IMG/VR virus record: IMGVR_UViG_3300025942_000020
Span: 1-20,385 of that record
Length of the DNA stretch: 20,385 bases
Strand: one strand, 5' to 3'
Source of the DNA: a virus
How positions within the stretch are numbered: the first letter of the stretch is position 1; every line of letters begins with the position of its first letter. The notes under the pieces were generated by a model. The model was given only the letters and a program-made list of their open reading frames with translations. It made no database searches and was not told the origin of the DNA. This document shows positions 2,084 to 15,696 of this stretch, one piece after another. The position numbers were made by a program, and so were the translations under genes.

Positions 2084-2109
2084 CGTGAAAGCTAGCCAAC
2101 GGCTAGAGT
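2081..2109 (+). promoter_or_regulatory. Rightward early promoter (PR-like), possibly giving a leaderless transcript
   Basis: TTGCGT (2081-2086) and TAGAGT (2104-2109) are 17 bp apart. Operator 2092-2106 fills the spacer and overlaps the -10, as in the leftward promoter at 765-792. A start 7-8 bp after the -10 falls at 2116-2117, on or next to the A of the Cro ATG at 2117. Confidence 0.6.
2092..2106. promoter_or_regulatory. Operator in switch region (15-bp near-perfect palindrome)
   Basis: CTAGCCAACGGCTAG has 6-bp perfect half-sites and differs from the operator at 768-782 at a single base (A for G at position 7). It overlaps the -10 of the promoter for the Cro-like gene. Repeating this motif over two divergently used promoters about 1.3 kb apart is the strongest regulatory signal in the window. 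Confidence 0.7.
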
Positions 2110-2116
2110 GCGGGGC

Positions 2117-2359
2117 ATGGACGCACAGATCACCCCGAAAGAGCGCGCGGAGCTTGCCGAGAGGGCAGGCGTCAACGAGCAGTACCTCTACCAGTGCCTG
2201 AGCGGCCGCCGCGACATGGACGCCACCCAGGCGTCGATCGTGGAGCGCAAGACGGAAGGGCGCATCCGCCGCTGGCAGCTTCGCCGGGATTGGCACGTCA
2301 CCTGGCCGGAACTGGTTGGCGCGGAGGGTGCGCCGCCGCTTGAGCAGCAGGAGGCCTGA
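2117..2359 (+). CDS. YdaS-type Cro-like repressor
   Basis: An 80-aa small DNA-binding protein. Residues about 11-32 (AELAERAGVNEQYLYQCLSG) form a helix-turn-helix; the segment after it, IVERKTEGRIRRWQLR and then WHVTWPELVGAEGAP, is the hallmark tail of YdaS/Cro-like phage proteins. It is the first rightward gene and faces the repressor gene across the operators, so it probably acts as Cro, shutting off repressor synthesis during lytic growth. I chose ATG 2117; a GTG at 2108 in frame lies inside the -10 region and cannot be used from this promoter. No normal ribosome site precedes ATG 2117. A purely YdaS antitoxin role is the alternative, but no YdaT-like toxin partner is recognised. Confidence 0.8.
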   Translation: MDAQITPKERAELAERAGVNEQYLYQCLSGRRDMDATQASIVERKTEGRIRRWQLRRDWHVTWPELVGAEGAPPLEQQEA

Positions 2360-2362
2360 CTC

Positions 2363-2542
2363 GTGGCCACCGCTCGCTTCATCGTGGCCCTGGTGCTCAT
2401 CGCCTTTGGCTGCGCGCTGCTGATCGTCTCGTTCCAGCCCGCGCAGGCGGCGACGCTGGTGTTGGTCGGTGGTCGGGTTCATGACGTCAGTCTCGTTTTT
2501 TTGCCGCGCGCCGAGATGGCAACGCATGGAAACGCGTCATGA
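2363..2542 (+). CDS. Small single-span membrane or secreted protein (GTG start)
   Basis: A 59-aa frame with GTG start that short-ORF filters miss. AGGAGG lies 8 nt before the GTG, inside the end of the cro-like gene, and the stop overlaps the next start as ATGA, so both ends fit the operon. Residues about 5-24 (RFIVALVLIAFGCALLIVSF) form a strong hydrophobic helix, followed by QPAQAA, which could be a signal-peptidase site or simply the membrane boundary. The rest is short and mildly basic. Function unknown; position just after cro suggests an early, host-directed or superinfection-related role, which is a guess. Confidence 0.65.
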   Translation: MATARFIVALVLIAFGCALLIVSFQPAQAATLVLVGGRVHDVSLVFLPRAEMATHGNAS

Positions 2543-2919
2543 CGTCCGTTGCGCCGTCCCAGCTGACGCTGAACTTTGAGCCGGCGCTGCCCGAGCGGTT
2601 CTCGACGCTGCGCGAGTTCATCGCCCACCGCGTGCAGGTCCAGGCCAAGCCGGCCAAGACGATCGCGATGGACATGGACATGAGCCCGTCGACGCTGTCG
2701 CGAAAGCTCAGCCCGAGCGACAGCGACACCCAGCGCTTCAACGTCGACGACCTCGAGGCGTATTTCCGCAACACCGGTGACGCAGCGGCAGTCATCGAAT
2801 ACCTCGCGGCCAAGTACCTGACCAGCGACGAGCAGCGCCAGGCGCGCGCCATTGCGCGGGTCGAGGCGCTGGCCACCGAGTTCACCCGGGCCCTGGCCTC
2901 TTTGAAAGGAATCGCATGA
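2539..2919 (+). CDS. Phage CII-like regulatory protein (CP76 type)
   Basis: A 126-aa protein with a central helix-turn-helix, residues about 38-58 (PAKTIAMDMDMSPSTLSRKL), then NVDDLEAYFRNTGDAAAVIEYLAAKYL. This arrangement, with a MSPSTLSRKLSP recognition helix, is that of the phage CII/CP76 regulators, which activate or modulate lysogeny genes. The charged helical C-terminus (SDEQRQARAIARVEALATEF) may form oligomers. It is third in the early operon and coupled to both neighbours by 4-bp overlaps. Family membership is judged by eye; the promoter it controls is not evident. Confidence 0.65.
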   Translation: MTSVAPSQLTLNFEPALPERFSTLREFIAHRVQVQAKPAKTIAMDMDMSPSTLSRKLSPSDSDTQRFNVDDLEAYFRNTGDAAAVIEYLAAKYLTSDEQRQARAIARVEALATEFTRALASLKGIA

Positions 2920-4124: not shown

Positions 4125-4402
4125 TCGCACTCGATTACGACGGCACCTACACGGCCGATCCCGAGCTCTGGCTGGCTTTCATCGTGAGTGCCCGTGTCCG
4201 TGGCCATCAGGTCTTCGTCGTGACCATGCGCCACGAATTCGAAGGCGCCGACGTCATGCGCCAGCTGCACGGCAAGGTCGATCGGATCGTCTACACCGCG
4301 CGCCGGGCGAAGCGGCCGCACATGGAATTTCTCGGCCACCAGGTCCAGATCTGGATCGATGACGCGCCGCACTGGGTCAACCAGGACGCGGCCGACGCAT
4401 GA
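4118..4402 (+). CDS. HAD-superfamily phosphatase-like protein
   Basis: A 94-aa compact HAD-like protein. MLIALDYDGTYT carries the motif I DxDGT (Asp6, Asp8), VVTMR at 34-38 matches motif II with Thr36, Lys65 is a motif III candidate, and WIDDAP (79-84) matches motif IV with Asp81/Asp82. All four elements needed for a phosphoaspartate hydrolase are therefore present without a cap domain. Substrate is unknown; small phage HAD proteins include 5'-nucleotidase or polynucleotide 3'-phosphatase-like enzymes. It overlaps the previous gene by 7 bp and the replication gene by 4 bp, which suggests a nucleotide or DNA-end role in replication. Confidence 0.8.
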   Translation: MLIALDYDGTYTADPELWLAFIVSARVRGHQVFVVTMRHEFEGADVMRQLHGKVDRIVYTARRAKRPHMEFLGHQVQIWIDDAPHWVNQDAADA

Positions 4403-5379
4403 CAGAAACCACGCCCCCCGCACCCCTGGTGCCTGCCGAGGTCGACCTGCGCGACTTCGGCTTCATGCCACTCGACGTGCGCACGCTGCTGTCCTCCTCG
4501 CTCTGGATCAAGGCGAAGAAGGATCCGCGCCTGGGCCACGCCGCCATGTCGCTCTGGTGCGAGTCCTGGCACCAAGTGCCGGCCGCCAGCCTTCCCGACG
4601 ACGACGAGGTGCTCGCCGAGCTCGCGCGCTGCGACGAGAAGGAATGGCGCCGCATCAAGGATCGCGTCCTCGCCAACTTCGTCAAGTGCGACGACGGCCG
4701 GCTGTACCACGAGACGGTGGCGAAAAAGGCCCTCGAATCTTGGAGCGCGAAGGTCGCCCAGCGGGCCCGAACCAAGGCCGCCACGGAAGCCCGAGAAGCG
4801 AAAAAGCGCGCACGTGACGAACAACGTGACGACGACCGTAACGGTCAACGTGACGAACAACGTGACGTTGCACGTGGCGAAAGTCGTGACGTTCACCAAG
4901 GGACAGGGACAGTAAAGGGACAGGGACAGGGAGACTCTGTAAAAACCAATACCTCAACCCCTGACGGGGTTGATCGTGCTCGTCCGCCGGACGACCACCC
5001 GCAGCTCGCCCTCGTCGACGACATCCGGGGAATCCCCTGGAGTCCGCCGGACTGCCCGCATGGCGCCGTGCTCGCCCTCTGGGCCGAGGTGCTGCCCACA
5101 CTGCCGCAGCACGTGCCATCGCAGTGGAAGGGCGCCCGAGCCGACCACCTCCGAGCCCGTTGGCGGGAGACCGCCGAGGAAAAGCGCTGGCCCGATCAGG
5201 CCGCGGGCTTGGCCTATCTCCGCAAGCTCTTCGCCTACGTCGGCAAGAGCCGATTCCTCACCGGACGCGCCAGCACCGCGCCGGACAAACGCCCATTCGT
5301 CGTTGAGCTCGAATGGCTGGTCAAGCCGGCCAACTGGGCGAAGTTGATCGAGGGCAAGTACCACCAGGACGCGTCATGA
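4399..5379 (+). CDS. DUF1376-type phage replication protein containing the probable origin
   Basis: A 326-aa protein in the place of a lambdoid O gene. Residues about 17-120 (LRDFGFMPLDVRTLLSSSLW, GHAAMSLWCESWHQVPAASLP, WRRIKDRVLANFVKCDDGRLYHE) match the DUF1376/YdaU winged-helix type. A low-complexity linker (about 135-180) encodes the tetrapeptide run RDEQ RDDD RNGQ RDEQ, produced by the 12-bp iterons in the DNA. The C-terminal part (about 220-322), with AGLAYLRKLFAYVGKSRFLTG and FVVELEWLVKPANWAKLIEG, resembles the C-terminal region of phage replication organizers that recruit host DnaB or DnaC. No helicase or loader gene follows in the window, so host machinery is probably recruited directly. 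Overlaps 4 bp at both ends. Confidence 0.8.
   Translation: MTETTPPAPLVPAEVDLRDFGFMPLDVRTLLSSSLWIKAKKDPRLGHAAMSLWCESWHQVPAASLPDDDEVLAELARCDEKEWRRIKDRVLANFVKCDDGRLYHETVAKKALESWSAKVAQRARTKAATEAREAKKRARDEQRDDDRNGQRDEQRDVARGESRDVHQGTGTVKGQGQGDSVKTNTSTPDGVDRARPPDDHPQLALVDDIRGIPWSPPDCPHGAVLALWAEVLPTLPQHVPSQWKGARADHLRARWRETAEEKRWPDQAAGLAYLRKLFAYVGKSRFLTGRASTAPDKRPFVVELEWLVKPANWAKLIEGKYHQDAS
4810..4893 (+). repeat. Seven tandem 12-bp iterons (probable replication origin)
   Basis: Units begin at 4810, 4822, 4834, 4846, 4858, 4870 and 4882, exactly 12 bp apart. Consensus is CAACGTGACGAA; units 2, 4 and 5 share CAACGTGACG exactly, units 1, 6 and 7 differ at one to three positions, and unit 3 (GACCGTAACGGT) is the most diverged. 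The array sits inside the replication gene, as lambda iterons sit in gene O, and is followed by purine-rich repeats, an AT-richer stretch and a hairpin. The protein encoded upstream and around it is the likely iteron binder. Confidence 0.75.
4900..4929 (+). repeat. Purine-rich direct repeats next to iterons
   Basis: GGGACAGGGACAG occurs at 4900-4912 and again at 4917-4929, period 17, separated by TAAA. Each copy is itself two GGGACA units. The block is almost all purine on the plus strand and lies between the iterons and the AT-richer part, so it may be part of the origin. Confidence 0.55.
4954..4973. repeat. Perfect inverted repeat in the origin region
   Basis: TCAACCCC and GGGGTTGA pair perfectly (8 bp) across a TGAC loop. 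It directly follows the local AT-richer stretch CTGTAAAAACCAATACCTCAA (4937-4957), which could be the unwinding element. No T-tract follows, so it is not a rho-independent terminator. Confidence 0.6.
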
Positions 5380-5651
5380 ACCGACAACGCTTCGACGAGA
5401 ACGCGACGGGCGCACTGCCGTCGCTCGACCACTCCCTGCTGTGTTCGAACGCAGGTTGCAACCGCCGGTGGACCTGCGACTTCGGCAAGCGCCTGTGCAG
5501 CGAATGCGACGCGCGGCGCCACAGCGGACACGCGGCCAAGCCGCCGCAGCGCCAGGCCATGCTGCCCGCCATGCCAACGCTGCGCGAGGCCGTCAGGCCG
5601 TACGCGGAGCCGGATGAGCGCGACGAGGAGTACGTTCATGGCGCCGATTGA
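5376..5651 (+). CDS. Small zinc-ribbon-like protein
   Basis: A 91-aa protein with a Cys cluster at about residues 23-44: LLCSNAGCNRRWTCDFGKRLCSEC, giving C-x4-C-x4-C and later C-x2-C, plus HSGH nearby. This looks like a small zinc-binding fold, perhaps for DNA or protein contact. The C-terminal half (LREAVRPYAEPDERDEEY) is acidic and probably extended. The ATG overlaps the replication-gene stop by 4 bp. Position between the replication protein and the resolvase suggests a replication or recombination accessory. No named family is recognised. Confidence 0.7.
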   Translation: MNRQRFDENATGALPSLDHSLLCSNAGCNRRWTCDFGKRLCSECDARRHSGHAAKPPQRQAMLPAMPTLREAVRPYAEPDERDEEYVHGAD

Positions 5652-7205: not shown

Positions 7206-7371
7206 GGAACATCGACGGCGAGCTGCCCGTCGTTCCGAGCGCGGCAGCGAACGGCAGCCGACCAGCGCGTGCACAGCGCGTGAGCCCGATGGCCGGCCCT
7301 CCACGGAACCCGAAAGCCTGCGATGCCAGCCCTCAAGACCCTCGTCCCCCCACGCAAACCGGTGCCCAAAC

Positions 7372-15032: not shown

Positions 15033-15359
15033 ATGCCCGGATCCACGATCCCTCGCGGAAACATCCTCTACACGAAGCAGTTCGCCACCGTGCTGACCCC
15101 CGCTTCGGTCGGGGCCAACACCACCGCGGAGCAGAACTTCACCATCCCAGGCCTGCAGGTGGGCGACTACCTGAACTGCCAGTGCGCGGGAGCGCAGACG
15201 GCGGGCATCTCGGTGGCCAACGTGCGCGTGACGGCGCCGAACACTGCGACGATCGCCTTCAACAACTCCACCGGCGGCTCACTCACGCCGGCGTCGACCG
15301 CCTACGGCTTCATCTGGGGCCGGCCGGAGTCGCTGCCGCTGCCCTCCGACGCTCTGTGA
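15033..15359 (+). CDS. Decoration-like structural protein, paralog 2
   Basis: A 108-aa protein starting MPGSTIPRGNILYTKQFATV. It shares with the next gene TAEQNFTIPGLQVGDYL (cf. SAEQTFSVPGLLVGDQV), FNNSTGGSLTPA (cf. FQNNTGGSLTPP) and the ending RPESLPLPSDAL (cf. RPETLPLPSNAS), so they arose by duplication. Short beta strands and no hydrophobic segment suggest a secreted-like virion surface protein. AGGAGG lies 4-5 nt before the ATG. Confidence 0.68.
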   Translation: MPGSTIPRGNILYTKQFATVLTPASVGANTTAEQNFTIPGLQVGDYLNCQCAGAQTAGISVANVRVTAPNTATIAFNNSTGGSLTPASTAYGFIWGRPESLPLPSDAL

Positions 15360-15366
15360 GGACGCC

Positions 15367-15696
15367 ATGACCAGCACCACCATCAACCGCGGAAACATCG
15401 CCACCACGATCCTCATGAGCCTCGCGCTCACGCCGGTTGCGGTGGGCGCCACGACCTCCGCCGAGCAGACCTTCTCCGTGCCGGGTCTGCTCGTCGGCGA
15501 CCAGGTCTCCGCGCTGCAGTTCCAGGGCGCCTGGACCGTCCTCATCGACATCGTCAACCTGCGCGTGAGCGCGGCGGGGACGCTGTCGGTCTCGTTCCAG
15601 AACAACACCGGCGGCTCCCTGACGCCGCCGGCGGGCAACTACCTGCTCGAGGTCAACCGGCCCGAGACCCTCCCACTCCCTTCCAACGCGAGCTGA
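15367..15696 (+). CDS. Decoration-like structural protein, paralog 3
   Basis: A 109-aa paralog of the previous gene (shared features listed there), beginning MTSTTINRGNIATTILMSLAL; the RGNI-x-(Y/T)T opening is also common to both. The N-terminal portion is more hydrophobic (ILMSLALTPVAVGA), which could be misread as a signal peptide, but it aligns with the ordinary strand of paralog 2 (VLTPASVGA). It follows after 7 bp. Its strand order VSALQFQG, RVSAAGTLSVSFQNN fits a compact beta sandwich. Confidence 0.68.
   Translation: MTSTTINRGNIATTILMSLALTPVAVGATTSAEQTFSVPGLLVGDQVSALQFQGAWTVLIDIVNLRVSAAGTLSVSFQNNTGGSLTPPAGNYLLEVNRPETLPLPSNAS

Follow-up and report, generated by a model that had tools for sequence, protein, structure and literature searches.

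A candidate lambda-type replication origin with 12-bp iterons and a purine repeat array inside the linker of a DUF1376 phage initiator gene

The window, that is, the whole 20,385-bp stretch of viral DNA that was analysed, contains a replication gene with a set of origin-like elements in its central part (Table 1). The product of 4399-5379 matched Pfam family PF07120 (DUF1376) with an E value of 1.8e-11 and a score of 44.7 bits, the cut-off of this family being 30.1, and it matched PHROG 22470 (replication protein) at 1.6e-47. Residues 214-322 matched PHROG 5810 (replication initiation) at 1.8e-16, and the O-like PHROG 345 was matched at 4.1e-7 by the C-terminal part only. These matches confirmed the gene assignment of the original prediction, which had placed origin-like signals inside a replication gene. 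In the AlphaFold2 model of the protein, the N-terminal domain was winged-helix-like and was extended by a long helix as far as residue 148 (pLDDT 95.9), residues ~155-210 formed a disordered linker of low confidence, and the C-terminal domain was helical. When the N-domain fold was compared with the PDB, the top matches were winged-helix proteins, including RepA-type initiators, and none of them was significant (E 0.1 or worse). The PDB sequence matches of the replication protein were not significant either.

By its sequence, the setting is that of a lambdoid early right operon, the transcription of which would run through the candidate origin; putative regulators lie upstream. No helicase or helicase loader gene was found within the window. 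The end of the replication gene is overlapped by a small ORF (5376-5651) that has a zinc-ribbon-like CxxxxC...CxxC pattern and is without a family match. Elsewhere in the window, a tRNA-His (GTG) was predicted on the minus strand, with plus-strand phage genes on either side (7231-7309), and the similar neighbouring ORFs 15033-15359 and 15367-15696 are an apparent tandem duplication (15033-15696).

Table 1. Features of the replication gene and its upstream region (positions in the window)
Feature	Position	Strand	Remarks
Cro/YdaS-like and CII-like regulators, upstream	2108..2919	+	PF15943 E 8.3e-9; PHROG 101 E 2.8e-6
Replication initiator gene	4399..5379	+	N-terminal DUF1376 domain, disordered linker, O-like/DnaD-like C-terminal domain
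Winged-helix-like DNA-binding domain (predicted)	4417..4755 (residues 7-119)	+	long helix continuing to ~residue 148
Seven 12-bp iterons	4811..4892	+	core ACGT-N-ACGT, odd palindrome
Junction string ACGTTCACCAAGGGA	4889..4903	+	between last iteron and GGGACA array
Purine tract, GGGACA tandem array	4898..4934	+ (coding strand)	one T in 37 nt
AT-richer stretch CTCTGTAAAAACCAATACC	4935..4953	+	
Hairpin TCAACCCC-TGAC-GGGGTTGA	4954..4973	+	8-bp perfect stem, loop TGAC
Second near-perfect inverted repeat	4976..4998	+	11-nt arms, 91%
C-terminal domain, probable helicase recruitment part	5038..5367	+	PHROG matches

The seven units of exact 12-bp period that had been predicted were recovered. Their 9-nt cores begin at 4812, 4824, 4836, 4848, 4860, 4872 and 4884, and units 3 (CCGTAACGG) and 5 (ACGTGACGT) are fully symmetric. 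The run of seven CGTN(A/G)CG motifs at 12-bp spacing was compared with 2000 codon shuffles of the gene, in which the longest run was 2. All seven Arg codons of the iterons were CGT, versus 3 of the 24 Arg codons outside them in this gene (p 4.6e-5); in nine other genes of the window, CGT was used for 13 of 139 Arg residues. The iteron cores were common to 11 relatives, in most of which CGTNACG is read as Arg-Asp; the reading frame deviates in L411, where it gives Val-Thr, and in L433, where it is the third one. The number of units was found to be 4 in L398, 5 in L153, 8 in L151 and 13 in L077 and to change by whole 12-bp units, which agrees with the proposal that a repeat run in a disordered linker can gain or lose units in frame.

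CGTGACG at 12-bp spacing was also observed, in another frame, in tail-fibre-like GNVTGNVTG proteins (L135, L136, L146, L147, L149, L150 and L154-L156), which are probably unrelated look-alikes of the iterons. In AT-rich phage proteins of L131, L133, L138, L141 and L145, VRDELRDGERDE, which contains CGTGACG three times at 12 bp, is followed by long Asn-repeat DNA, and this repeat region is possibly another in-gene origin.

In the purine tract, GGGACA begins at 4900, 4906, 4917 and 4923, and GGGAGA begins at 4929. A spacing of 17 bp had been assigned to these repeats; this is correct from one pair to the other, but a more apt description of the array is a 6-bp tandem with 5 nt inserted into it. 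Because of this 5-nt insert, the first pair is translated as GTGT and the second pair as GQGQ. When it was judged within the window alone, the tract ranked second, behind a Lys/Glu-rich region, and its significance on this basis was rejected; its significance comes from the comparison with relatives described below. Codon bias within the tract was discarded as evidence, being partly circular.

The AT-richer stretch of the original prediction was present but mild, with a GC content of 0.475 in 4910-4949 versus about 0.7 downstream. In the test for an AT-rich unwinding region, the AT content of the relatives was 0.43 versus 0.37 (p 0.04). The 8-bp perfect inverted repeat was found as described, and stems of length 7 or more were present downstream of the tract in 21% of the relatives versus 3.4% of control windows.

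The relatives were compared for unit number and for conservation of DNA versus peptide, and the DNA words of the linker were found to be kept, whereas the peptides were not. The string ACGTTCACCA at the junction of iterons and array was kept in all three reading frames; this junction is translated as VHQG in the window and in L008, L009, L153 and L426, as VHQE in L398, as TFTKG in L411 and as RSPQ in L433. A sample of 80 viral loci picked by the N-terminal domain only was collapsed at 75% identity into 29 lineages. Of the 14-mers common to different lineages, 72 of 312 in the linker were out of frame (16 of 63 after removal of the array words), compared with 0 of 513 in the N-domain. The 14-mer figures were preferred, since with shorter words chance matches blurred the C-terminal control. 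In a pooled set of 49 lineages, which included loci found through GGGACA, the array was read as GQ/GE in 38, as GT in 18 and as RD in 3. Conservation of the linker repeats at the peptide level was rejected because the DNA words were common across frames. This is the opposite of the case that had been named as refuting the prediction, in which peptide repeats are kept and DNA repeats are lost. By these comparisons, the linker is a clear natural case in which selection on DNA operates within protein-coding sequence, and does so in three frames.

The occurrence of the purine tract in other phages was also studied. Viral stretches with three GGGACA copies lay in DUF1376-like ORFs in 75 of 120 cases, whereas stretches with three copies of GGGCAA, a control of equal composition, did so in 0 of 120. 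In 27 of the 29 DUF1376 lineages, the linker contained a purine segment that outscored every segment elsewhere in the gene (mean score of the best segments 31.5 vs 11.9, p 4e-6), and at a score threshold of 18 the tract was found downstream of the iterons in 25 of them. By this score, L402, L403 and L433 were without a clear tract, and L406 scored low. The tract consists of a purine-rich, nearly T-free coding strand with repeats of 5-12 bp, the units being GGGACA, GGGAGA, GGGAAA, GAGAG, GAGAA, GACAA, or 7-bp and 11-bp sequences; its constant property is a coding strand with 3% T and 7% C. Among these sequences, the iterons vary from phage to phage and the purine tract persists.

A second initiator family (PHROG 1408/2149/16167) also has a purine array in the linker (GGAAAGGAACAGGGAAC) after variable upstream repeats, but it differs in its N-domain, which has no detectable homology to DUF1376. 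The linker tract was the strongest in 26 of 28 lineages of this family (p 8e-6), and out-of-frame sharing of DNA was 24% in the linker and 0% in the N-domain; the seed alignment of this family was made from purine 7-mer loci, and its 80 loci were picked by protein alone. The Lactococcus phages r1t and Tuc2009 had no significant purine tract, and extension of the purine rule to Lactococcus phages was unsupported. In these two phages, T-containing tandem repeats follow the N-domain (RLDKNRLDKN in r1t, L560:3896-4630; GKDSIGKDSI in Tuc2009, L561:4097-4879), and these are perhaps a variant form of the same element.

Origins inside genes are already known from lambda, SPP1, P1 and pSK41. In lambda, the region adjoining the iterons opens on binding of O and has almost all its purines in one strand, an asymmetry called paradoxical since it stiffens the DNA (PMC5043065). 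The top-scoring purine tract of lambda gene O was found to be 48 nt long and to start at the end of iteron 4, in the very region that opens on O binding; by codon shuffling alone it was not significant (p 0.14). The origins in lambda O and P22 gene 18 resemble the present one in lying in the linker of an initiator gene at an equal operon position, in having direct repeats of an inverted-repeat site, and in having a purine-biased coding-strand tract right after the last iteron and then a palindrome. They differ in that the lambda-type iterons are 18-19 bp long, in contrast to 12-bp units with a 9-bp odd palindrome, and in that the lambda-type tract is A-rich, whereas here it is a GC-rich tandem of GGGACA. 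The annotated origin of P22 consists of a T-poor, A-rich repeat plus the CCCCCTAAAGGGGG hairpin; in the gene 18 sequence (L479:189-1004), two direct repeats ACAAAAGACAATAW precede this hairpin, which resembles that of the DUF1376 contig L003.

Three features of the lambda-type layout, namely a repeat array in the linker, a strand-asymmetric purine region by the iterons and a palindrome beyond the tract, were found in the window. The claimed likeness to the lambda origin held for the layout, but the AT-rich stretch is weak and the GGGACA array, far from being a minor part, is the feature common to unrelated initiators and reading frames. The protein had no Pfam match to PF04492 (the lambda O family) and none by hhalign, its N-domain being without detectable sequence homology. 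Thus, a lambda-like way of working is proposed here and membership of the O family is not claimed.

Other known origins show partial likeness. In the staphylococcal RepA_N plasmid pSK41, the origin lies in the middle of rep, the N-terminal domain binds boxes there, and the linker is dispensable as a peptide (PMC5703833). RepA-type structures were among the best, non-significant fold matches of the N-domain (4pta and 5kbj at E 0.2-0.6), but pSK41 RepA belongs to a separate sequence family, and no Pfam match to RepA_N was obtained. SPP1 oriL in gene 38 and P1 oriL in repL are in-gene phage origins too (PMC6316719), and synonymous changes in P1 repL lower its activity (PMC9948254); their proteins are unrelated to DUF1376 and their unwinding elements are AT-rich. 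The iteron plasmids RK2 and F (TrfA, RepE) combine iterons with a repeated unwinding element that is bound strand-specifically, the Rep proteins holding one strand of the repeats and all repeats being required (PMC4081077); in contrast to the present case, the origin lies outside the gene and contains AT-rich 13-mers. No Rfam match was obtained.

The locus is probably a lambda-type phage origin inside the linker-coding part of the gene for its own initiator, with a winged-helix initiator acting on the iterons and the purine repeats serving as the opening and strand-capture element. By analogy, the DUF1376 N-terminal domain would bind the seven odd-palindromic iterons, and the initiator-iteron complex together with negative supercoiling would open the adjoining DNA, as in the lambda and iteron-plasmid models (PMC5043065, PMC7466680, PMC4081077). 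Opening and strand capture would depend on the GGGACA tract and not on AT-richness alone: the tract may melt more readily than other parts of the gene and, without folding on itself, offer a tandem, strand-asymmetric single strand to the initiator or helicase loader, while the C-terminal domain would recruit the replicative helicase. The observations behind this reading are the sequence anatomy, the gene family, the cross-frame conservation of DNA and the recurrence in two other initiator families, and from them protein binding, melting, strand capture and helicase loading at this origin are inferred. Since both periods, 12 bp and 6 bp, are divisible by three, the signal can lengthen or shorten in a dispensable disordered linker with the frame intact. 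Two observations speak against the role given to the tract: its GC-richness, which sets it apart from classical unwinding elements, and the mildness of the AT-richer stretch.

The physical properties of the tract were calculated, the duplex and hybrid energies with nearest-neighbour parameters. Despite its G content, the tract duplex was weaker than the gene average (-1.40 vs -1.59 kcal per step, p 1e-7), and its single strand was nearly unfolded (MFE -0.7 vs -8.0 kcal/mol with RNA parameters, p 1.5e-8). RNA:DNA pairing had an advantage over DNA:DNA pairing of 0.36 kcal per step within the tract, compared with 0.11 for the gene (p 3e-8); were the tract the template strand, the hybrid would be unfavoured. 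This advantage, as well as the constant position of the purines in the coding strand, would also suit an R-loop, in which the purine-rich early right transcript stays on the pyrimidine template and opens the origin, as in ColE1 (PMC5043065). However, the lambda origin can be activated by a downstream promoter pointing away from it, transcription of the origin itself being dispensable (PMC5043065), and the RNA should be covered by translation; an R-loop was regarded as unlikely.

The C-terminal domain is exchanged independently of the N-domain: in 613 pairs of relatives, the N-domains were more than 70% identical and the C-terminal groups differed. The array, which lies at the module boundary, might accordingly be mainly a recombination joint for swapping N-terminal/iteron and C-terminal modules, and L009 indeed combines the N-domain, iterons and array of the window with an unrelated C-terminus. 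Such a joint was considered quite improbable, because it leaves the purine bias, the varied repeat units and the placement in a second unrelated family unexplained, and because swaps between arrays of different frames would cause a frameshift. It is very improbable that the iterons are a self-regulating operator or incompatibility array with the true origin elsewhere. Autoregulation is frequent among iteron arrays, but the layout matches that of in-gene origins established by experiment, namely those of lambda, SPP1 oriL and pSK41 (PMC7466680, PMC6316719, PMC5703833), and no comparable array was found elsewhere in the window, although the window may be incomplete.

Two further explanations were largely excluded, and the chance of either is slight. 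Strand separation by G-quadruplexes fits the many arrays with a G3 motif, such as (GGGACA)4GGG in phi297, but was rejected as a general principle because four G3 runs with loops of at most 7 occurred in only 8 of 25 tract-bearing lineages picked regardless of the array and the GAGAA, GACAA and GGAAA variants have no G3 runs. A low-complexity linker with repeats that arose by slippage or persist for the sake of their peptides (RDEQ, GQ, GT), without DNA function, agrees with the modelled disorder and the variable unit numbers, but is refuted as a complete account by the identical DNA in three frames, the 5-bp and 7-bp repeats, whose lengths do not fit the codon period, the absence of the control hexamer from DUF1376-like ORFs (0 of 120) and the position of the tract, always downstream of the iterons.

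In the searchable literature, which does not include most subscription journals, no paper was found on GGGACA origins, on DUF1376 in connection with an origin of replication, or on a frame-independent purine array common to initiator families and separate from AT-richness, nor was one found with DUF1376 in its title or abstract. With confidence just short of even, the reading of the locus as an in-gene origin may be extended: proteobacterial phages with unrelated initiators may have one common cis element, a tandem, nearly T-free, frame-independent purine array in the coding strand adjoining replaceable iterons. The so-called AT-rich region of lambda would be an A-rich case of this element, and what matters most for opening would be strand asymmetry and not AT content, the effect passing through a step on the host side that these phages have in common, for instance helicase loading. 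The lambda region is both purine-asymmetric and AT-rich, whereas the tract described here is GC-rich; thus, the two properties are separated, and the opening property becomes directly testable. On this reading, DUF1376 would gain a function, and phage genomes would gain a sequence rule for finding origins.
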